The position numbers and the translations under genes were made by a program. The notes below the pieces were generated by a model. The model had not been told where the DNA came from and did not search any database. It was given only the letters and a program-made list of their open reading frames with translations. DNA of 64,000 nucleotides from NCBI GenBank assembly GCA_030527325.1, contig JAUNBA010000003.1, positions 1 through 64,000 of the forward strand, read 5' to 3'. Numbering within the stretch: the first letter of the stretch is position 1; each line of letters begins with the position of its first letter. The DNA is from Slackia sp. (GTDB lineage Bacteria > Actinomycetota > Coriobacteriia > Coriobacteriales > Eggerthellaceae). Of the stretch, positions 53,824-63,436 are shown piece after piece.

Positions 53824-54270
53824 TCAGTACAGCGGAAGCGATCCGGTGAGCGGGTCGATTTGAGCGGGGTAGAGCGGTTCGAACGCGAGGCAGGTGTAGG
53901 TGGGCTCGCCGTGGAATTCGGTGTGTCCCGCATCCTGAATGAGGGCCACGACGAATCCTGCCTCTTTCCCGCGCGCGGCAAGCTCGAGCAGTTCGTCCTC
54001 CGAATCCACGTAGACGCAGATCTTCGCCACGCCATCGGCGAACCACGCGCGCAAAGGCGTGCGTTCGCGTCCCGTTTCGGCGCTTTCGGAATCGGCCGCG
54101 TCGTCGAGCACGACGTTTCCGTCTTGCACCCGTATGGCGTTCAGGCGTTCTTCGCGCGCCAGCGCCGCAAGCACGGCTTCGACGCAGGCGTGCCCCGATT
54201 GGGCTGCTATTTTTCCTTTGCGCATTTTCAAATCGCGTCTGACGACGATGACCTGCTTGGCGGTGTGCAT
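53824..54270 (-). CDS. Pth2-type peptidyl-tRNA hydrolase
   Basis: A 148-aa protein. KQVIVVRRDLKMRKGKIAAQSGHACVEAVLAA is the N-terminal motif of the Pth2 family, and VALIQDAGHTEF matches the conserved IRDAGxTQ-like site. The family releases peptides from peptidyl-tRNA and is usual in archaea and eukaryotes but also found in some bacteria. A stretch around 45-70 looks like an insertion, and the C-terminus is longer than usual. AAAGGAAG precedes the ATG. Confidence 0.87.
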   Translation of the reverse strand: MHTAKQVIVVRRDLKMRKGKIAAQSGHACVEAVLAALAREERLNAIRVQDGNVVLDDAADSESAETGRERTPLRAWFADGVAKICVYVDSEDELLELAARGKEAGFVVALIQDAGHTEFHGEPTYTCLAFEPLYPAQIDPLTGSLPLY

Positions 54271-54408: not shown

Positions 54409-54414
54409 TACAAT
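54409..54414 (+). promoter_or_regulatory. Extended -10 of the cobalamin operon
   Basis: TGCTACAAT, extended -10, just upstream of the riboswitch. The 137 bases before it (54271-54408) hold only upstream sequence for the divergent pth2-like gene. Confidence 0.5.
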
Positions 54415-54420
54415 AGCGCG

Positions 54421-54549
54421 GATTGTCAATGGCCGTGATGGAGGCGTCATGACGCGGCGGGCGTGTGCCCGTCAGGGGAAATCGGGGTGGAAATCCCCGG
54501 CTATGCCAGTAACCGTGAATCGCGCAGCGATAAGTCGGAACACCCGCCA
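54421..54549 (+). promoter_or_regulatory. Cobalamin riboswitch
   Basis: The conserved core is present in order: GGGGAAATCGGGGTGGAAAT (54475-54494), CCCCGGCTATGCCAGTAACC (the GGCTG...CAACTG region), a variable stem ATCGCGCAGCGAT, then AAGTCGGAACACCCGCC (B12-box end, AGTCaGGAtACC-like). It ends about 37 bases before the surface protein start. No terminator T-run follows, so control of translation is more likely than of transcription. Exact 5' boundary is uncertain. Confidence 0.92.
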
Positions 54550-54585
54550 TCGTTTCATAAGGCCCTGGAAAAGAAAGGTGTCCGC

Positions 54586-57500
54586 ATGCACGGAACCGCA
54601 TTACGCGCGCCCGAAACGGACAAGCGGAGCATGGCGCAACGCATAGGCGCGCTTTGCTTGTCGTTCGTTTTGGCCGTATCGCTCACCCCGAGCGCCGCAT
54701 GGGCGTTCGAACCCGAAGAACAGCAAACGCCCCCTGAGGCGCTCGAGCATCAGGATGCCTCCGACGGCGTATCCGATGCCGTCGATGCTTCCTCGCACGG
54801 TGATTCGTCCGATAGCGAGCAGGCGGCCGACGCCGCGCCTGCAGCGCCGTCGGATGCGACCGCGAGCGCTCCCGAAGCGCCCGCCGCTAACGCGGCGATG
54901 CCCGTCGCTTCTGCGCAAACCGTCGCCGCCGCGCCTGCCGCCTCGCAGGCGGCCGATCCTCAGGCGCACGTGGATGCCGCGGTCAAGGCGCTCGAAAGCC
55001 TGTCGTTTTACAAGGTGAAGCCGCGCTACGGCGTCGATAGCAACATCAATGACGTACTCGAAGCCAAGCTCGTCGAGCTGGGATTCGCGGATGTCGATGT
55101 GCGCACGGCGAAGGCCGAGCCCTCGCGCGTCGATGAAAACTTCACCGCGGGTATCTCGACCGCTTCCGACGAGACGAACGGCCGCATCACCTATGCGTCG
55201 TACGATCCGGGCGTGTTCTCGTCGTGGTCGCTTGCGCAGTATTGCTCGTTCGCCATGGAGTTCGACCTGTCCTATCGGGGCGCGTATGCCCGATGGGCGC
55301 AGGACGGCAATACCGTGCTTCCGTGGGATGACGAAGCATGCAAAACGTATCTCGAGCAGTATGCGTCGGGCGTGGCCGTCGGCTTCGCGCAAGGCGATTC
55401 CGCCGATGCGGTGACGGCCGATATGACGCTTCCGTACAAGGCGTGCTCTTCCGATGGGACGAAGCTTTCGTGGTCGGAGGTGCGCTGGTCGTCTTCCGAT
55501 GAAAGCGTCGTAAAGCTCGCCGACGGCGGATACCGCGATTATCGCGGCATCGTCACGCGTCCTTCGTCCGACACGCAGGTCGTTCTGACGGCTTCTTTGC
55601 GCGTCGTCACGTCGGGCGGCCCGTCGGTTGCGGTCGAGCGCTCGTTCCCGATCACGGTGAGCGGCGATGCCGATAAGGTGGAGCAGGCCACCCGCGAGCT
55701 TCAGGAGAAAATCGATGCGGGCTTTTCGGTCGACGCGCTGAAGTACAGCGAGGGCGGCTCGAAGGTCGATGCCTCTGCCCTTACGGGAGACATCCAGCTG
55801 CCGACGCCGCACAAGCTCGGCGTCGACGGCAAATACACCGCTATCGCCTATAGCTGCGATACGGATGCCGTGCAGGTGAACGGATACCGCGGCAACGTGC
55901 ATCGCGGCCTGCCGGGCTCGCAACCTGCGCCCGCCCGCATCACCGTGACGGCCACCGATAAGGCGAACCCCGAGATCACGGCGAGCAAGACCATCGATGT
56001 GGCGGTGGCTCCGCTTTCGGCCGAGGCGGTCGAAGCCGAGCTCAAGCTGATGGATGAAGCCGCGGCAGGTTTCGCTGCGGCCATTCTCGATGGCCAGCAG
56101 GCCGACGCGGTGGCGTCCGATCTGCATGCCTTCCAGAAGGCGTATCGTGCGGAAGACGGCAGTCTGGCCTGGTCGTACAGGGCGTCGGATGCCGTCGGTG
56201 CGGGTATCGTGCCCGTCGAGCTTCCCGGCGCGTCCGAATCGGCGGGATACCGTCTGTTCCGCTCGAGCGATCCGTCGGTGATCGCGCACGAGAACCTGCT
56301 CGTCTCTCAGCCCGAATACAACACGCGCGTCACCGTCACGGCGCGTTTGGCGAGCGAGCAGTTCGCCCGCTATGCCGCCGATTACGCGGACGACCCCGTG
56401 TGGGGCTCCTCGTTCGCGCAGCTCGCGGGTCGCGACGTGTCCGTCGATGTGACGGTCAAGGGCGCCTCCGGCCTCGATAATCCGCGCGTGTCCGCGACGC
56501 TGTCCGTCATAGGCGTCGATGAGGCGGGCGCGGCGCAGGTGTGGGCCGCGGCCGATACGTTCGTGTTCGATGCGGGCGCCACGGCGGCCGATCTGTCCGA
56601 GACCGCATTTGCCGCCGCCGGCCTTACCGCCGATTACGGCGTGGGCGACTACGGCTGGTATCTCAACACCATCGCGTCTCCTTTCGACGGCCGCGTGCTC
56701 GGCTGGGATGACGCGACGCAGAAGTACTGGCAGCTCTTCGTCAACGGCGTCGCCGCCGAATCCGGCGCAAGCGGCATCACGCTGCAGCCTGGCGATTCGG
56801 TGACCTGGTATTACTCGGCATTCGGCGATGCGCTTCCCGAAGAGGGGGCCATGGCGGTCTCGGGCGCGGTCTACGGCGTCAACGCCGCCGGCGCGCGCGA
56901 GCTGTGGGCGCCTTCGACGAAACTTTCCATGCAGGAGGGCGCCACGGCGGCCGACTTCTCCGAGGCGCTCTTCAAGGAGGCGGGCCTTACCGCCGATTAT
57001 TCGACCGGCCAATACGGTTGGTTCCTCAACACCATCACGTCTCCCTTCGACGGTCGCGTGCTCGGCTGGGATGACGCGACCAAGCAGTACTGGCAGCTCT
57101 TCGTCAACGGCGAGTATTCGCAGGTGGGAGCAGGAAGTGTCACGCTGAAGCCCGGCGACCGCGTTGAGTGGCTGTATGCAGCCGACGGCGCGCAGCTCCC
57201 CGATGCGGACGACATTGTGGCGAATCCCGCGGCGCCGCATCCCGACGTCGAAAGCACGTGGCCCGGCTTCATGACGGGCAATTCCGCCATCGAGATCCCC
57301 GGCGGCTCGACCGGCACGGCCACCGATACGACCGAGACGTCGTGGCAGTCCGACTTCTCCCAGGACGGCGGCTACGTCAGCGAGCCGATCATCGTGGGCG
57401 ATGCGGTGTTCGTGGCGGCGGGTTCCATGCTGTACGCGAAAGACGCCAAGACCGGAGCGCAGCTTTCCGCCACGCCGTTGGCCGCTCCGATCGACTCGAT

Positions 57501-58995
57501 CGCGCGCATGGTGTACGTCAAGGGCATGGTGATCGTGCCGCTTTCGGGCGGACGTTTGCAGGCCGTGGCGGCGACCGGTGCACAGGGTGCGCCTCTTGCG
57601 ACGATATGGCTGACTGAGCAGCTGCCTTCGACGACGACCGAGTGGGGGGATCTGACGCAACAGTCTCTTACCACGTTGACGGTCGACGGCGATCGCCTGT
57701 ACTACGGCACGACCGACGGCGAGGCTCCGAATAAGGGCTATCTGCTGTGCATCGACGTGAACACCGGCGCGGTGGTGTGGAAGAACGAATCGGCCGACGC
57801 GGGCTTTTACTGGAGCGGCGTGGGCATCGCGGGCGATTTCGCCGTCATAGGCGATGACGCGGGCGATCTGCATGCGATCTCCAAGGCCGACGGCTCGATC
57901 GTTTCCACGGTGCATCTGTCGAGCGCTCCCATTCGTTCCACCACGGTGATTTCCCCCGACGGGTCGACGGCGTATGTCGCTGCGCGCGACGGCGTGCTGC
58001 ATAAGGTCTCCATCGGGGAGGATGGCGCCTTGACGGCTGCGGGCAGCGTGAAATTCGCGGCTTCCAGTTCGTCGACGCCCACCTTGTCCGACGGCAAGAT
58101 CTTCGTGGGCGGCCAGTCCGAGAAGTTCGATCCCGTCGGCAAGTACATGAAGTACCGCTATGCGGTGCTCGCGGTGATCGATGCCGATACGTTGGCCATC
58201 GAACACGCGATCGATTCGACGCTCGACGGCGCGCATATCGGCGGTGCCGACGGCAACGGCGGCGGAGCCATGGGCGATGTGAAGTCCATGCCGCTCGTGG
58301 TGAAGCAGAACGGCCAGACGTACGTGTACTTCACGAGCAATATGCGCCCGGGCGGCGTGTACTGCTACCGTTTGGGCGATGCGGGCGCGACGCTTCTGTA
58401 CACGCCTGCTTCCGACAAGCAGCAGTACACCATGTCTTCGATCGTCGTGGGGCCTGACGGCATGCTGTACTACATCAATGACTCCAAGACGCTGTTCGCG
58501 CTCGCCGGCGGCGCGCAGACCGCGCCCGAGCCCGAGCCGCAGCCGCAGCCGCAACCTGAACCGCACCCGCAGCCCGAACCCGAGCCTCAGCCTGCGCCGC
58601 AGCCTGATCCTGCGCCGCAGCTGCCCGGTTCTTCTTCCGGCGCCGAGGCGGTCCATCCCGGCGTTCAGGCCGCTCCCGCGGTTCCTGCCGCATCCGCTAT
58701 CGCGCCCGCGAAGCGTCCCGTGGCTCAAGACGGCGAAGCCGCCCGCGGCGTCGCGGCCGATAAGGCGGTCGCATCCGTTGCTTCCGATTCCTCAGTCGAG
58801 GGGGCGCCGGGGGCCGTGGCCATGGCGAAGGCCATGAACGCCGAACCCGCCGCCGAAACCGCGGCGTCGCAGGCGCCCGAGACGTCTTCCCGCTCTTTGC
58901 CCGTCGCGGCTCTGGTCGGCATCGGCATCGGCGCACTCGGCCTGATCGGCGCGCTGGTCTGGGCATTGCTCCTTCGTCGCAAGAACAGGGGGTAG
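54586..58995 (+). CDS. Large surface protein with two DUF4430 (transcobalamin-like) domains and a beta-propeller
   Basis: A 1,469-aa membrane-anchored surface protein, first gene of the riboswitch operon. Signal peptide to about A40 (AAWA|F); Ala-rich spacer; bacterial Ig-like modules (about 130-630); two DUF4430 domains (about 638-748 and 758-868), repeated with a period of 121 codons and sharing NTI-SPFDGRVLGWDDAT-YWQLFVNG; a PQQ/quinoprotein-type beta-propeller (about 915-1311); a Pro-Glu-Gln repeat; and a C-terminal helix with LLLRRKNRG. No LPxTG is seen. DUF4430 resembles the cobalamin-clasping domain of transcobalamin, so it may bind corrinoids outside the cell. GAAAGG precedes ATG 54586. 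Confidence 0.88.
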   Translation: MHGTALRAPETDKRSMAQRIGALCLSFVLAVSLTPSAAWAFEPEEQQTPPEALEHQDASDGVSDAVDASSHGDSSDSEQAADAAPAAPSDATASAPEAPAANAAMPVASAQTVAAAPAASQAADPQAHVDAAVKALESLSFYKVKPRYGVDSNINDVLEAKLVELGFADVDVRTAKAEPSRVDENFTAGISTASDETNGRITYASYDPGVFSSWSLAQYCSFAMEFDLSYRGAYARWAQDGNTVLPWDDEACKTYLEQYASGVAVGFAQGDSADAVTADMTLPYKACSSDGTKLSWSEVRWSSSDESVVKLADGGYRDYRGIVTRPSSDTQVVLTASLRVVTSGGPSVAVERSFPITVSGDADKVEQATRELQEKIDAGFSVDALKYSEGGSKVDASALTGDIQLPTPHKLGVDGKYTAIAYSCDTDAVQVNGYRGNVHRGLPGSQPAPARITVTATDKANPEITASKTIDVAVAPLSAEAVEAELKLMDEAAAGFAAAILDGQQADAVASDLHAFQKAYRAEDGSLAWSYRASDAVGAGIVPVELPGASESAGYRLFRSSDPSVIAHENLLVSQPEYNTRVTVTARLASEQFARYAADYADDPVWGSSFAQLAGRDVSVDVTVKGASGLDNPRVSATLSVIGVDEAGAAQVWAAADTFVFDAGATAADLSETAFAAAGLTADYGVGDYGWYLNTIASPFDGRVLGWDDATQKYWQLFVNGVAAESGASGITLQPGDSVTWYYSAFGDALPEEGAMAVSGAVYGVNAAGARELWAPSTKLSMQEGATAADFSEALFKEAGLTADYSTGQYGWFLNTITSPFDGRVLGWDDATKQYWQLFVNGEYSQVGAGSVTLKPGDRVEWLYAADGAQLPDADDIVANPAAPHPDVESTWPGFMTGNSAIEIPGGSTGTATDTTETSWQSDFSQDGGYVSEPIIVGDAVFVAAGSMLYAKDAKTGAQLSATPLAAPIDSIARMVYVKGMVIVPLSGGRLQAVAATGAQGAPLATIWLTEQLPSTTTEWGDLTQQSLTTLTVDGDRLYYGTTDGEAPNKGYLLCIDVNTGAVVWKNESADAGFYWSGVGIAGDFAVIGDDAGDLHAISKADGSIVSTVHLSSAPIRSTTVISPDGSTAYVAARDGVLHKVSIGEDGALTAAGSVKFAASSSSTPTLSDGKIFVGGQSEKFDPVGKYMKYRYAVLAVIDADTLAIEHAIDSTLDGAHIGGADGNGGGAMGDVKSMPLVVKQNGQTYVYFTSNMRPGGVYCYRLGDAGATLLYTPASDKQQYTMSSIVVGPDGMLYYINDSKTLFALAGGAQTAPEPEPQPQPQPEPHPQPEPEPQPAPQPDPAPQLPGSSSGAEAVHPGVQAAPAVPAASAIAPAKRPVAQDGEAARGVAADKAVASVASDSSVEGAPGAVAMAKAMNAEPAAETAASQAPETSSRSLPVAALVGIGIGALGLIGALVWALLLRRKNRG

Positions 58996-58996
58996 C

Positions 58997-59899
58997 ATGA
59001 TGGAGCCGAAGGATGATCTGCGGCCCGATTCGGCCGCATCCGCAGCGCTCAGAGTCGATTCCGACGGCGGCGCGTCCGATACCCATGCGAAGAAGACCTT
59101 CGCATCGCGCCGGCAGCGCTTCGCCGTCGGCGCGCTGGCGCTCGTTTCGGCGCTTGTGCTGGGCGTGTCCGCATGGGGCCTCGCGTCGTCGGGTGTATTC
59201 GGCACCGGTTCGGCCGATCTGCTGACAACCGTGGTTCCTGCCGAATCGGACGCCGGCGACGAAGCGGCCGAGACCGATGTTCCGTCTGATTCCGCCGCGT
59301 CCGCCGACGAGGCGGCCGGCGAATCGTCCGGCGCTTCGGATGCCGCGAATGCAGACGGCATTGCGGGCGCCGATTCGGCCGGCGCTGCGAACGGCGCTGC
59401 GACGCAGTCTGCCGCGAAGGGCGCCGAAACGGCGCCCGCGGCCGGCGCATCGGGGTCTTCGGCGCAGCCTCAGGCTCAGGCGGGGTCTTCGGCGCCCGGT
59501 TCTTCGGGCGCAGCATCCGCCCCTACGGCGCCGCAGGCTCCCGCGCCGGATGTTCCCGGTCAGAATGAGGCGCCTGCGCCTGCGACGATACGGGTGTCCG
59601 TTTCGCTTACGTCGGCCGCGGTGGGCAACCCCGTATCGGCGGCGGGAACGTACACGTTCGAGCGCGGCGCGACGGCGTACGACGCGCTGTGCGCGCTCGG
59701 TTTGTCGGTGAACGCCCGCCAAAGCCCGATGGGCTTGTACGTGGCCGCTATCGGCGGTTTGGCCGAAAAGCAGCATGGCAGCGGAAGCGGATGGAAGTAT
59801 GCCGTCAACGGCGTCGATCCGCAGGTTTCGTGCGCCGCATACGAACTGCATGACGGCGATACCGTTGCGTGGCGATACGTGACTTCGATCAACGGATAG
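58997..59899 (+). CDS. Membrane-anchored single DUF4430 protein
   Basis: A 300-aa protein: cytoplasmic N-terminus of about 35 residues, membrane helix (FAVGALALVSALVLGVSAWGL), a 110-residue Ala/Gly/Ser/Pro linker, and one DUF4430 domain at the end (TYTFERGATAYDALCALGL ... GWKYAVNGVDPQVSCAAYELHDGDTVAWRYV). It starts one base after the previous stop. It may pass ligand from the large surface protein to the EcfS component. The ligand is inferred from the riboswitch. Confidence 0.86.
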   Translation: MMEPKDDLRPDSAASAALRVDSDGGASDTHAKKTFASRRQRFAVGALALVSALVLGVSAWGLASSGVFGTGSADLLTTVVPAESDAGDEAAETDVPSDSAASADEAAGESSGASDAANADGIAGADSAGAANGAATQSAAKGAETAPAAGASGSSAQPQAQAGSSAPGSSGAASAPTAPQAPAPDVPGQNEAPAPATIRVSVSLTSAAVGNPVSAAGTYTFERGATAYDALCALGLSVNARQSPMGLYVAAIGGLAEKQHGSGSGWKYAVNGVDPQVSCAAYELHDGDTVAWRYVTSING

Positions 59900-60003
59900 C
59901 GCAGAGCGGAAGATGCAATGCAAGACGGGAGGCGCGAGTCTCCCGTCGTTCGTTTCGGGACGCGAAGCGTCCGAAAGGCGATGGAAAGGAGGACGCGGCC
60001 GTC

Positions 60004-60870
60004 ATGGACCATGTGTTCGCTTCGTATCATCCTGCCGTGGCGTTTTCGTTCATCGTGTGCGCCGCCGGGCTGACGATGGCGGCGCAGCATCCCGTCTACG
60101 GGGTGCTTTCGCTCGTCGGCGCGCTTGCGACGTCGGTCGTTGTGCGCGGCGCGCGCCCGACGCTGCATTCGCTTGCCTGGGCGGTGCCGATGTGCGCGAT
60201 CGTGGCGTGCGCCAACCCGTTGTTCTCGGCGTCGGGTTCGACCGAGCTGTTCTGTATCGGCAGTATCGCGGTCTATGCGGAATCGCTCGCATACGGCCTG
60301 TGCTCGGGCGCCATGTTCGCGTCGGTGTTTCTCTGGTTCGCCTCGTATGCCCGCTGTATGGACAGCGAGAATTCCCTGGCGCTGCTCGGCAATGCGGCGC
60401 CGGTGGTCACGTTGATGACGTCGCAGGTGCTGCGTCTGGTCCCACAGTTCGTCGCGCGCGGGCGCACGGTGGCCGCCGCACACGATGCGGCGAGTGCCGC
60501 CGCGCCGCGCGATGCTTCCGAGAAGGCGCGGGGGCGTTTCCGTATCGTTTCGGTGCTGATGGAGTGGGGGATGGAAGACGGCCTCGCCCGCACCGACGCC
60601 ATGCGCGCTCGCGGCTATGACTGCGGTGCGCGCCGCACCACGTATCGGAGGTATCGCTTCGGGCGCGTCGATGCCGCGCTCGTGGGGTCTATCGCGGCGC
60701 TTGCCGCGCTCAATGCGTTTCTCGTGGCGACGGCCTGCGCGCAATACGAGTTTTATCCCGTGATGAGCCGCTTGACGCCGTGGTGGGGCTACGGCGCGTA
60801 TGCGGCGTTTCTGGCTTTGCCCGTCGTGCTGCGGATCAAGGAGTGGTGGCAGTGGCATTCGTTGAAGTAA
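60004..60870 (+). CDS. ECF transporter T component (EcfT/CbiQ family)
   Basis: 288-aa coupling protein with 6-7 membrane helices. The family's coupling signature is seen as LARTDAMRARGYD, and the earlier TSQVLRLVPQFVARGRTVAAAH. AAAGGAGG lies 11 bases before ATG 60004. It joins the S component to the two ATPase domains. Confidence 0.9.
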   Translation: MDHVFASYHPAVAFSFIVCAAGLTMAAQHPVYGVLSLVGALATSVVVRGARPTLHSLAWAVPMCAIVACANPLFSASGSTELFCIGSIAVYAESLAYGLCSGAMFASVFLWFASYARCMDSENSLALLGNAAPVVTLMTSQVLRLVPQFVARGRTVAAAHDAASAAAPRDASEKARGRFRIVSVLMEWGMEDGLARTDAMRARGYDCGARRTTYRRYRFGRVDAALVGSIAALAALNAFLVATACAQYEFYPVMSRLTPWWGYGAYAAFLALPVVLRIKEWWQWHSLK

Positions 60871-62324
60871 GCGGCTATTCGTTCGCATACCCTTGCGCAT
60901 CCGAGGATGCGCGCGCGAACGAAGAGCCTTCGTGGTCGGTGCGCGATGCGAGCCTGTCGGTCGAGGAGGGGGCCTTCTGCGTGGTGGTGGGGCGCACGGG
61001 GTGCGGCAAGACCACGCTGCTGCGCAGCATGAAGCCCGAGCTTGCGCCGGCGGGCCGCCGCATGGGCTCGATTCGCGTCATGGGCCGCGCCGTGGTGCAA
61101 GACGGCGTGCGCGTCGACGACATGTCGCCGCGCGAGAGCGCGGCGGGCATCGGGTACGTGATGCAGGACCCCGGCGCCCAGATCGTATGCGACACCGTAT
61201 GGCACGAATTGGCGTTCGGCCTGGAAAACCTTGGTATTCCGCAAAACGAGATGCGCAGGCGCGTGGCCGAGGTGGCGCACTTTTTCGGCATAGAGCCGTG
61301 GATCCACGCTTCGACCGCATCGCTTTCGGGCGGCCGCCAGCAGATCGTCAACCTCGCCGCGGTGCTGGCGTTGCGCCCGCGCCTTCTGCTCCTCGACGAA
61401 CCCACCGCGCAGCTCGATCCGAACGCGCTCAAGCAGTTTTTGTTCATGCTGGGCCGCGTGAACAGGGAGCTTGGCATCACGGTCATCGTGGCCACGCACG
61501 CTCCCGAGGACATGGTTTCGTACGCCACGCAGACAGTCGAGCTCGATGCGGGATTCGCGCCCGCTTCCTGCGAACAGGCGAAGCACGTCATGGAGCCGCG
61601 CTGGAAGCGGCGTGCCGCGTCGATGGCCGAGCAACCCGACCTCATCGCGGTCGACGAGGCGTTCGTGCGCTACGAGCGAAGCGAGCCGTGGGTGTTGCGC
61701 GGCATCGATGCGCGCGTGCGTCGAGGGAGCGTGCATGCGTTCGTCGGCGGCAACGGCTGCGGCAAGTCGACGCTGCTCAAGGTCATGGCGGGCATCATGA
61801 GCCCGCAGCGGGGCCGCGTGCGCAATGCGTCTTCGTCTTCGCAGGCGTTGCTTCCCCAAGATCCCAAGACGCTGTTCGTGTGCGACACGGTCGCCGACGA
61901 GCTGCACGAGTGGAGCGCTCGGTGCGGATACGGCGCGGCCGAAGAGCGGGAGGCGTTGCGCCGTGCGGGCCTTGCGCCCTGCGGCGATCGGCATCCGTAC
62001 GATCTGTCGGGCGGCCAGCAGCAGAAGCTTGCGCTGGCCAAGCTGCTGCTGACGGGAGCGCGGCTGTTGTTTTTGGACGAGCCCACCAAGGGCCTCGATC
62101 CTCAGGCGTGCGCGGAGGTGTCGGGCATCGTGCGCGCGCTTGCCGACGAGGGGCGCACGGTGGTCATGGTGACTCACGACCTCGATTTCGCGTTGGTCAC
62201 GGCCGACGAGGTCTCCATGCTGTTCGACGGCGAGACGGCCTGCACCGAGCCTGTCGCCGAGTTCTTCGAGAACAATCTGGTGTATCGCCCGAATGCCGCC
62301 TCCCGTTTGTTCGGGGCGATATAG
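60852..62324 (+). CDS. ECF transporter ATPase, two domains fused (EcfA-EcfA')
   Basis: 490 aa with two ABC domains. Domain 1: GRTGCGKTTLL (47-57), LSGGRQQ, LLLLDEPTAQLDPN. Domain 2: GGNGCGKSTLL (about 299-309), LSGGQQQKLALAKLLL, LLFLDEPTKGLDPQ. GTG 60852 has AAGGAG 8 bases upstream and overlaps ecfT by 19 bases. Many ECF systems use two separate ATPases; fusions are known. Confidence 0.95.
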   Translation: MAFVEVSGYSFAYPCASEDARANEEPSWSVRDASLSVEEGAFCVVVGRTGCGKTTLLRSMKPELAPAGRRMGSIRVMGRAVVQDGVRVDDMSPRESAAGIGYVMQDPGAQIVCDTVWHELAFGLENLGIPQNEMRRRVAEVAHFFGIEPWIHASTASLSGGRQQIVNLAAVLALRPRLLLLDEPTAQLDPNALKQFLFMLGRVNRELGITVIVATHAPEDMVSYATQTVELDAGFAPASCEQAKHVMEPRWKRRAASMAEQPDLIAVDEAFVRYERSEPWVLRGIDARVRRGSVHAFVGGNGCGKSTLLKVMAGIMSPQRGRVRNASSSSQALLPQDPKTLFVCDTVADELHEWSARCGYGAAEEREALRRAGLAPCGDRHPYDLSGGQQQKLALAKLLLTGARLLFLDEPTKGLDPQACAEVSGIVRALADEGRTVVMVTHDLDFALVTADEVSMLFDGETACTEPVAEFFENNLVYRPNAASRLFGAI

Positions 62325-63059
62325 ATGGCGCGCGGGTCTTTTTCGCCGTCGCGCGCGGCGGCTTCGGCGGCCGAGTTCGTCGCGGTGTGCGCGGTGCCTG
62401 CGGCGCTCGCGTATTGCGCCGCGATGCAGGTCGAGCAGACCGCCTTGCTGAGCATGGCCGTGGTGGCCTGCGCGCTGCTGGTGTTCTTCATCGGCTACGA
62501 GCGCCATCGCCCGCGCCTGCGCGACATCATGCCCGTCGCGGTTTTGGCCGCGCTGGCGGCGGCGGGGCGCATCCTGTTCGCTCCGTTTCCCAGCTTCAAG
62601 CCGGTGTCGGCCATCGCCATCATCGCGGGCGTGGTCTTCGGGCGCCGTGCGGGATTCATGGTGGGAGCGCTTGCGGCGCTCGCGTCGAATTTCTTCTTCG
62701 GCCAAGGGCCGTGGACGCCGTGGCAGATGTATGCTTGGGGCATGGTCGGCTACGGCGCCGGATTGCTGGCGCAGGCATGCTCGGCCCCGCCGCGTCTGTC
62801 CGTCGTGTGCGCGTACGGGTTCGCGTCGGGCTTCGGCTACGGGTTCATCTTGAACCTTTGGAGCATCGTGGGGTTTTTCCATCCGCAGGATGCCGTGCAG
62901 CTGGCGGCGGTGTATGCGGCCGCGCTGCCCTTCGATGCCATGCATGCGGTCGCGACGGTCGCGTTTCTCGCGGCCTTGTACACGCCGTGGCGCCGCAAGC
63001 TGGCGCGCATACGGCGCAAATACGCCTTGATCGATGGGGGAGAAGAGGGAGTTTCATGA
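62325..63059 (+). CDS. ECF transporter S component, predicted for cobalamin
   Basis: 244-aa substrate-binding membrane subunit with about 6 helices, including SNFFFGQGPWTPWQMYAWGM, a stretch typical of ECF S components. It begins directly after the ATPase stop. Substrate assignment to cobalamin rests on the riboswitch that heads the operon; related S components CbrT/CblT import B12 in other bacteria. Another cobalamin-related compound or a precursor cannot be ruled out. Confidence 0.85.
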   Translation: MARGSFSPSRAAASAAEFVAVCAVPAALAYCAAMQVEQTALLSMAVVACALLVFFIGYERHRPRLRDIMPVAVLAALAAAGRILFAPFPSFKPVSAIAIIAGVVFGRRAGFMVGALAALASNFFFGQGPWTPWQMYAWGMVGYGAGLLAQACSAPPRLSVVCAYGFASGFGYGFILNLWSIVGFFHPQDAVQLAAVYAAALPFDAMHAVATVAFLAALYTPWRRKLARIRRKYALIDGGEEGVS

Positions 63060-63436
63060 CGGAGATCGTTATCGGCGGATTCGTGGCCGCGGCATGCCTG
63101 GTGTCGGCGGTCGTGTTGTTTTCGGGCCGCGGCGTATTCATGGTCGCCACGCTGAATAGGATGGACCCCGATGAACGCGAGCGTCTTTACGACGTGCCCG
63201 AAGCCTGCCGGGCGACGGGCGGGTTCGCGGCTGCGGCCGCCGCGTCGGTGTTCGTGTTCGTCGTGCTGAAATACATCGCGCTCACGCAGGGCCTGCCCGG
63301 TTTCGTGCTGCCCGCCTATACCGTGCTCATGATCGTCGTGATCATCGGGTCGCTGGTCTACAGCACGTCCTATATCGAAAAGCGCTGCAAAAAGGAAGCG
63401 CCGCGCCGCGCATCGGGCAAGGCCCGCGTGAAATAG
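63056..63436 (+). CDS. DUF3784 family small membrane protein
   Basis: A 126-aa protein with three membrane helices; the cytoplasmic loop ATLNRMDPDERERLYDVPEACR matches the DUF3784 pattern. An ATGA overlap with the EcfS stop makes it the last gene of the operon. Function unknown. Confidence 0.82.
   Translation: MTEIVIGGFVAAACLVSAVVLFSGRGVFMVATLNRMDPDERERLYDVPEACRATGGFAAAAAASVFVFVVLKYIALTQGLPGFVLPAYTVLMIVVIIGSLVYSTSYIEKRCKKEAPRRASGKARVK

Follow-up and report, generated by a model that had tools for sequence, protein, structure and literature searches.

A six-gene operon behind a cobalamin riboswitch in Slackia sp. probably encodes a cobalamin-regulated system for corrinoid capture and import, in which a B12 transporter of the energy-coupling factor (ECF) class is combined with a surface-capture module. 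The operon lies in a window of 64,000 nucleotides (nt), i.e. the whole stretch of DNA that was analysed (assembly GCA_030527325.1, contig JAUNBA010000003.1, positions 1 to 64,000, forward strand); the genome is a bin of 1.67 Mb that is 85% complete. Since the same gene set recurs in many related gut bacteria, scarce B12 is probably caught at the cell surface and taken in by this system. This interpretation is computational: it draws on gene content, homologies, gene order, riboswitch linkage and the exchange of two folds, a propeller and a toroid, in the capture protein.

When adenosylcobalamin (AdoCbl) is plentiful, the riboswitch would lower expression; when it is scarce, the operon would be made. 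The large surface protein would bind a corrinoid outside the cell by means of two DUF4430 clasps together with a propeller. A second, anchored DUF4430 protein beside the membrane would be the binding subunit, receiving the corrinoid and presenting it to a CbrT-type EcfS; EcfT and EcfA would power import of the corrinoid handed to EcfS. From the computed evidence we infer which substrate is carried, that each extracellular protein binds it, in what order it is handed on and which way regulation runs. The import half of this scheme is better supported than the capture half, which rests on homology and linkage.

The six genes are all on the + strand, 3' of the riboswitch, and the last ends at position 63436. 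The aptamer is of the AdoCbl-II type (54475..54545, +): RF01689 scores 40.0 bits, above its gathering score of 36.5 (E 3e-8, local search), while the fuller model RF00174 fits a wider envelope (54425-54565) at 25 bits, below its cut-off. A covariance model, R1, which was trained on 16 leaders (that of the window and 15 related ones), matches positions 54473-54547 at 77 bits. Single-sequence folding of the leader is no better than that of shuffles (z 0.63). This is the sole cobalamin riboswitch detected in the bin. The first gene starts 41 nt from the aptamer end; genes 1 and 2 are 1 nt apart, 104 nt precede the EcfT gene, and from there on the genes overlap or abut. The operon is predicted to be riboswitch-controlled.

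The initial annotation, made from the letters of the window, had listed a cobalamin riboswitch, a surface protein of 1,469 amino acids (aa) with two DUF4430 domains and a propeller, an anchored protein with one DUF4430 domain, EcfT, a two-domain EcfA, an EcfS and a DUF3784 protein. Pfam, Rfam and profile searches place all of these elements on the + strand in that order. RF01689 lies above its gathering score ahead of the operon; Pfam, hydropathy and an AlphaFold2 model of residues 628-1310 mark the large protein; PF14478 and an N-terminal transmembrane (TM) segment mark the anchored protein; profile, motif and PDB matches mark the three ECF components. The interpretation offered there is partly supported; its relay, from large protein to anchored protein to EcfS, is a prediction.

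Of 298 genomes sampled from the class Coriobacteriia, 186 hold relatives of the window EcfS; the nearest named loci are from Slackia. The survey covered 60 regions and 80 named loci, annotated by BLAST and local hidden Markov models, and yielded 111 distinct EcfS loci from Coriobacteriia and some Clostridia (L-numbers label surveyed loci, G-numbers surveyed genomes). Usually a capture gene comes first, followed by the anchored DUF4430 gene, EcfT, EcfA and EcfS. The initial annotation had proposed looking for this order across Coriobacteriia; it recurs there and extends to Clostridia, for example Cuneatibacter caecimuris DSM 29486 (L164) and Candidatus Soleaferrea massiliensis (L169). A chance arrangement is excluded by its recurrence in dozens of genera. 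At L045, tandem B12 riboswitch matches (2198-2277 and 2470-2588, +) stand before a single capture gene. On a separate contig, genome G259 carries another DUF4430-EcfT-EcfA-EcfS set (L187:1976-6718, -); no riboswitch was found in this short stretch.

The riboswitch follows the DUF4430 and capture genes rather than the ECF genes, a stronger link than was known to the initial annotation. Among loci with room upstream, scanned with R1, it is found at 63 of 81 that have a capture gene, an anchored DUF4430 gene or both, versus 1 of 17 with neither. It precedes 32/43 propeller operons and 18/18 toroid operons that have an anchored gene, 13/17 loci having the anchored DUF4430 gene alone, and 0/3 propeller loci without it. 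All matches in the surveyed EcfS loci are on the operon strand. Rfam's own model gives the same picture; as read from its matches, 26 of the 40 in 60 genomes fall at the genes described here. Eleven further stretches were picked for DUF4430 lying away from the first EcfS locus. Here a riboswitch opens all six propeller and anchored-DUF4430 pairs distant from ECF genes and also stands before one solitary DUF4430 gene.

The operon encodes an ECF transporter: an EcfT with the coupling motif, two EcfA ATPase domains and an EcfS are present in one cluster. The EcfS (62325..63059, +) matches CbrT of Lactobacillus delbrueckii (6fnp_A) at 7.1e-9 by single-sequence phmmer search. With a 28-member profile against the PDB, CbrT is reached at 1.3e-14, while the next S-components (4hzu and RibU) are at 0.11 and 0.17. 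By these matches, CbrT is the nearest homologue of EcfS among the characterised S-components whose structure is solved. CbrT was shown to bind cobalamin (about 9 nM) and cobinamide (about 36 nM) and to transport both (PMC5997447); the initial annotation had also named ECF systems such as CbrT as importers of B12. Since EcfS matches this demonstrated cobalamin and cobinamide transporter, the transporter part is of a known kind (CbrT/CbrUVT); CbrUVT serves as a B12-uptake signature in genome surveys (Rodionov et al. 2019, PMC6593275).

EcfT (60004..60870, +) has no Pfam match when searched alone. Its 16-member family profile matches solved EcfT chains (5d3m_D, also 6fnp) at 1.9e-9; CbiQ is matched in 6 of the 16 relatives, and the window protein bears an MRARGY motif. 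EcfA (60852..62324, +; GTG start) carries two ATPase domains in a single chain (ABC_tran 2.8e-50, two stretches), with Walker A, LSGG and Walker B in each half, and matches CbiO1 (3e-33) and EcfA1 (3e-32) in the PDB. EcfA and EcfS abut in the window. In ten loci from Collinsella-type genomes (L068, L071, L075, L118, L120, L135, L138, L142, L145 and L148), the two lie in a single open frame and are apparently fused.

The large surface capture protein (1,469 aa; 54586..58995, +) has a signal or TM segment near residue 20, an aBig_2 domain at 261-358 and DUF4430 domains at about 632-750 and 754-872 (Pfam and hydropathy). A propeller at about 906-1310 is followed by a Pro-rich linker, a TM segment and a basic RRKNRG tail. 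The anchored protein (300 aa; 58997..59899, +) has a TM segment near residue 41 and one DUF4430 at 224-295 (PF14478 3.3e-14). Hydropathy predicts this protein to be extracytoplasmic and membrane-anchored, and several relatives have a lipobox-like motif by simple pattern and hydropathy. DUF4430 occurs in three copies at the operon and nowhere else in the bin.

Transcobalamin, intrinsic factor and haptocorrin are animal B12 carriers; they share a clasp (beta domain) with DUF4430. The tandem domains of the large protein (56467..57201, +) match PF14478 at 2.8e-22. Run against the PDB, a 35-member DUF4430 profile finds a DUF4430 protein of Ruminococcus at 5.9e-6, haptocorrin at 7.7e-5 and transcobalamin-2 at 9.4e-5. 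The likeness to the transcobalamin clasp pointed out in the initial annotation is thereby upheld in the PDB at 7.7e-5 to 1.5e-3, and homology of DUF4430 to the clasp is supported at the level of sequence profiles. One clasp can hold B12, as the isolated beta domain of human transcobalamin was crystallised with cyanocobalamin (PDB 5np4 title).

The AlphaFold2 model of residues 628-1310 has a predicted local distance difference test (pLDDT) score of 89.9; both DUF4430 stretches in it show the same strand run and one helix. The VIA-align list for this model is filled by propeller matches. YxaL (7eq5) is best, with Z 40.4 and 2.1 A over 339 residues, followed by the eight-bladed Cake8 and BamB. 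The propeller (57301..58515, +; PF13360) is thus modelled as BamB/PQQ-like, probably with eight blades. Homology of the propeller to BtuG was looked for and not found: the matches listed, by sequence and by fold, include BamB, YxaL and PQQ proteins but not BtuG. For this reason BtuG is compared below only by analogy.

In the first slot of the surveyed operons, a propeller is found in 49 loci and a toroid in 20 loci; the two are never found together. The toroid-type proteins of L041, L049 and L089 have two DUF4430 domains and then an alpha/alpha toroid; several toroid-type proteins end with an LPXTG-like motif. The window protein has a propeller where the transcobalamin family has an alpha6/alpha6 toroid. 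For the toroid-type protein of L133 (model pLDDT 78.7), transcobalamin takes the first three Foldseek ranks in the PDB; intrinsic factor, haptocorrin and the beta domain of transcobalamin come lower. In this form the large protein would carry both halves of transcobalamin. The link depends on the Foldseek fold search and is modest (E 3e-4). In VIA-align, intrinsic factor (Z 18) and transcobalamin (Z 17.5) come behind terpene cyclases (Z 21), which shows that the toroid fold is widely shared. A direct sequence tie between the toroid and the transcobalamin alpha domain was sought and rejected; the toroid profile matched squalene-hopene cyclase relatives, not transcobalamin. On the EcfS tree, which was built quickly and contains many weak forks and two misplaced rows, propeller and toroid types need at least 10 changes, which suggests repeated exchange of the capture module. 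The capture slot of L057 (7378-14529, -) holds a 2,384-aa frame with ricin-type lectin domains, a CbiK cobalt-chelatase domain and a toroid; this genome also has CbiD.

Anaerobic corrin synthesis requires CbiD. This gene is present in 5 of 61 genomes and absent from 56. A FecCD/BtuC-family permease was not found in 18 of the 61; none of these 18 has CbiD, while 14 have a MetH-type B12-binding domain. For these 18 genomes, the EcfS system is the sole corrinoid-import candidate found by these searches. The window's genome has a gene for a corrinoid methionine synthase; BtuR (PF02572) and the MetH reactivation domain (PF02965) were not found in the 85% complete bin. In three loci metH adjoins the ECF operon (L078:1585-4092, +; L084:7056-9581, -; L152:10690-13269, -).

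Identification of corrinoid transporters has been called an open problem (Rodionov 2019, PMC6593275), and corrinoid acquisition by Gram-positive gut bacteria is poorly described. The closest known system is ECF-CbrT of Lactobacillus delbrueckii (Santos et al. 2018, PMC5997447), with the predicted CbrUVT (PMC6593275); these have in common with the window a CbrT-type S-component, EcfT, EcfA and a link to cobalamin genes. CbrT uses a shared ECF module and has no described extracellular capture protein, whereas the window has in-operon EcfT, a two-domain EcfA and two DUF4430 proteins. The animal carriers share the alpha/alpha toroid with the toroid-type relatives. In contrast to these carriers, the bacterial proteins have the clasps before the toroid, often in duplicate, and are anchored to wall or membrane; the window protein has a propeller in the toroid's place.

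BtuG and BtuH of Bacteroides (PMC6143338, PMC8941943) capture B12 at the surface near a riboswitch-linked transporter, as the window proteins would, and BtuG is also a propeller. However, BtuG is seven-bladed and partners BtuB in the outer membrane, while the window propeller is BamB/PQQ-like; no DUF4430 is described in these systems. A BtuH homologue lies near an ECF-like cobamide transporter in Eubacterium siraeum (PMC8941943). BtuF of BtuCDF is an extracytoplasmic B12 binder that serves an ABC-type importer, a role predicted here for the anchored DUF4430 protein; BtuF serves the BtuCD permease, whereas ECF transporters are described as relying on a membrane S-component instead of binding lipoproteins (PMC7299338). 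Consequently, a dedicated external binder for an ECF transporter would be a new form. No description of this operon was found in the literature on DUF4430, transcobalamin-like proteins and CbrT, subscription papers being outside the coverage, and the surface-capture module is apparently undescribed.

If the capture-and-import interpretation is true, surface proteins that resemble the host's carriers trap B12 for much of the Coriobacteriia and for some Clostridia, ECF transporters can cooperate with a dedicated external binder, and DUF4430 gains a function. It would also have consequences for B12 competition in the gut, and is testable in cultured Slackia, Eggerthella, Gordonibacter, Adlercreutzia and Cuneatibacter. 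A bolder form is put forward tentatively: there would be a class of ECF transporters that need an extracytoplasmic binder, the clasp would close B12 against an interchangeable propeller or toroid, and the forms with DUF4430 plus toroid would have a common ancestor with intrinsic factor and transcobalamin.

Several observations weigh against capture and import of B12 by this operon. With the models used, a riboswitch was not detected at 11 of 43 propeller loci with an anchored gene, mostly of family f2 (Olsenella among the named members), nor in four DUF4430 regions outside the main locus (L184, L186, L187 and L188). L074, L076, L077, L082, L083, L086 and L087 have the same genes with no cobalamin riboswitch by R1 or at the Rfam gathering level. 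The riboswitch counts are not independent, since the loci are related and R1 was trained on 16 surveyed loci. In other bacteria, B12 riboswitches also govern cobalt transport and B12-independent isozymes. The window's bin holds one FecCD permease as well. DUF4430 matches transcobalamin weakly (E 1e-3 to 1e-5), and 'putative metal binding' is the name given to one bacterial DUF4430 of solved structure.

The ECF transporter might import corrinoids while the large protein is an adhesin or wall-spanning scaffold; contact with B12 would then be made by the anchored DUF4430 protein alone, or by neither protein. The aBig_2 Ig-like domain and the Flg_new repeats of relatives are typical of adhesins, and a BamB/PQQ-like propeller is a common scaffold. 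The large protein also appears dispensable, as some loci, e.g. in Collinsella, retain only the anchored DUF4430 gene with the riboswitch. However, clostridial versions of about 500-550 aa (L143, L153 and L169) extend barely beyond signal, propeller and anchor, and the alternative large protein has the transcobalamin fold pair. Moreover, the large gene directly follows the riboswitch, and the two remain together where the ECF genes lie in another place. This alternative is considered unlikely.

The substrate could also differ. The main import may be a corrinoid precursor or incomplete corrinoid such as cobinamide, with the same capture logic; this variant is compatible with the favoured interpretation and is somewhat unlikely to be the principal role. 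CbrT accepts cobinamide besides cobalamin (PMC5997447), and gut genomes with incomplete corrinoid pathways and salvage are reported (PMC6593275). On the other hand, no cob genes are seen beside the operon in the window, and the present data do not separate vitamers. It is very unlikely that the operon imports another compound (cobalt, another metal or another tetrapyrrole), with the riboswitch as a regulatory link to cobalamin only. Cobalt transporters can lie behind B12 riboswitches, and EcfA resembles CbiO; an ECF heme importer exists (PMC7299338). Nevertheless, EcfS matches CbrT and no solved metal S-component, with other S-components at E >0.1. Cobalt import would make little sense in the 56 of 61 genomes that lack CbiD, and DUF4430 homology points to B12 carriers.

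The last gene of the operon encodes a small DUF3784 membrane protein (63056..63436, +; PF12650 2e-7), a putative accessory, and shares 4 nt with EcfS. It is present in the operon as the initial annotation had it, but it is not part of the conserved gene set: BLAST matches in the survey are confined to L036, L037 and L092, which are close Slackia relatives. This protein is thus outside the conserved module. A PTH2 peptidyl-tRNA hydrolase gene (53824-54267, -) is divergent from the operon.

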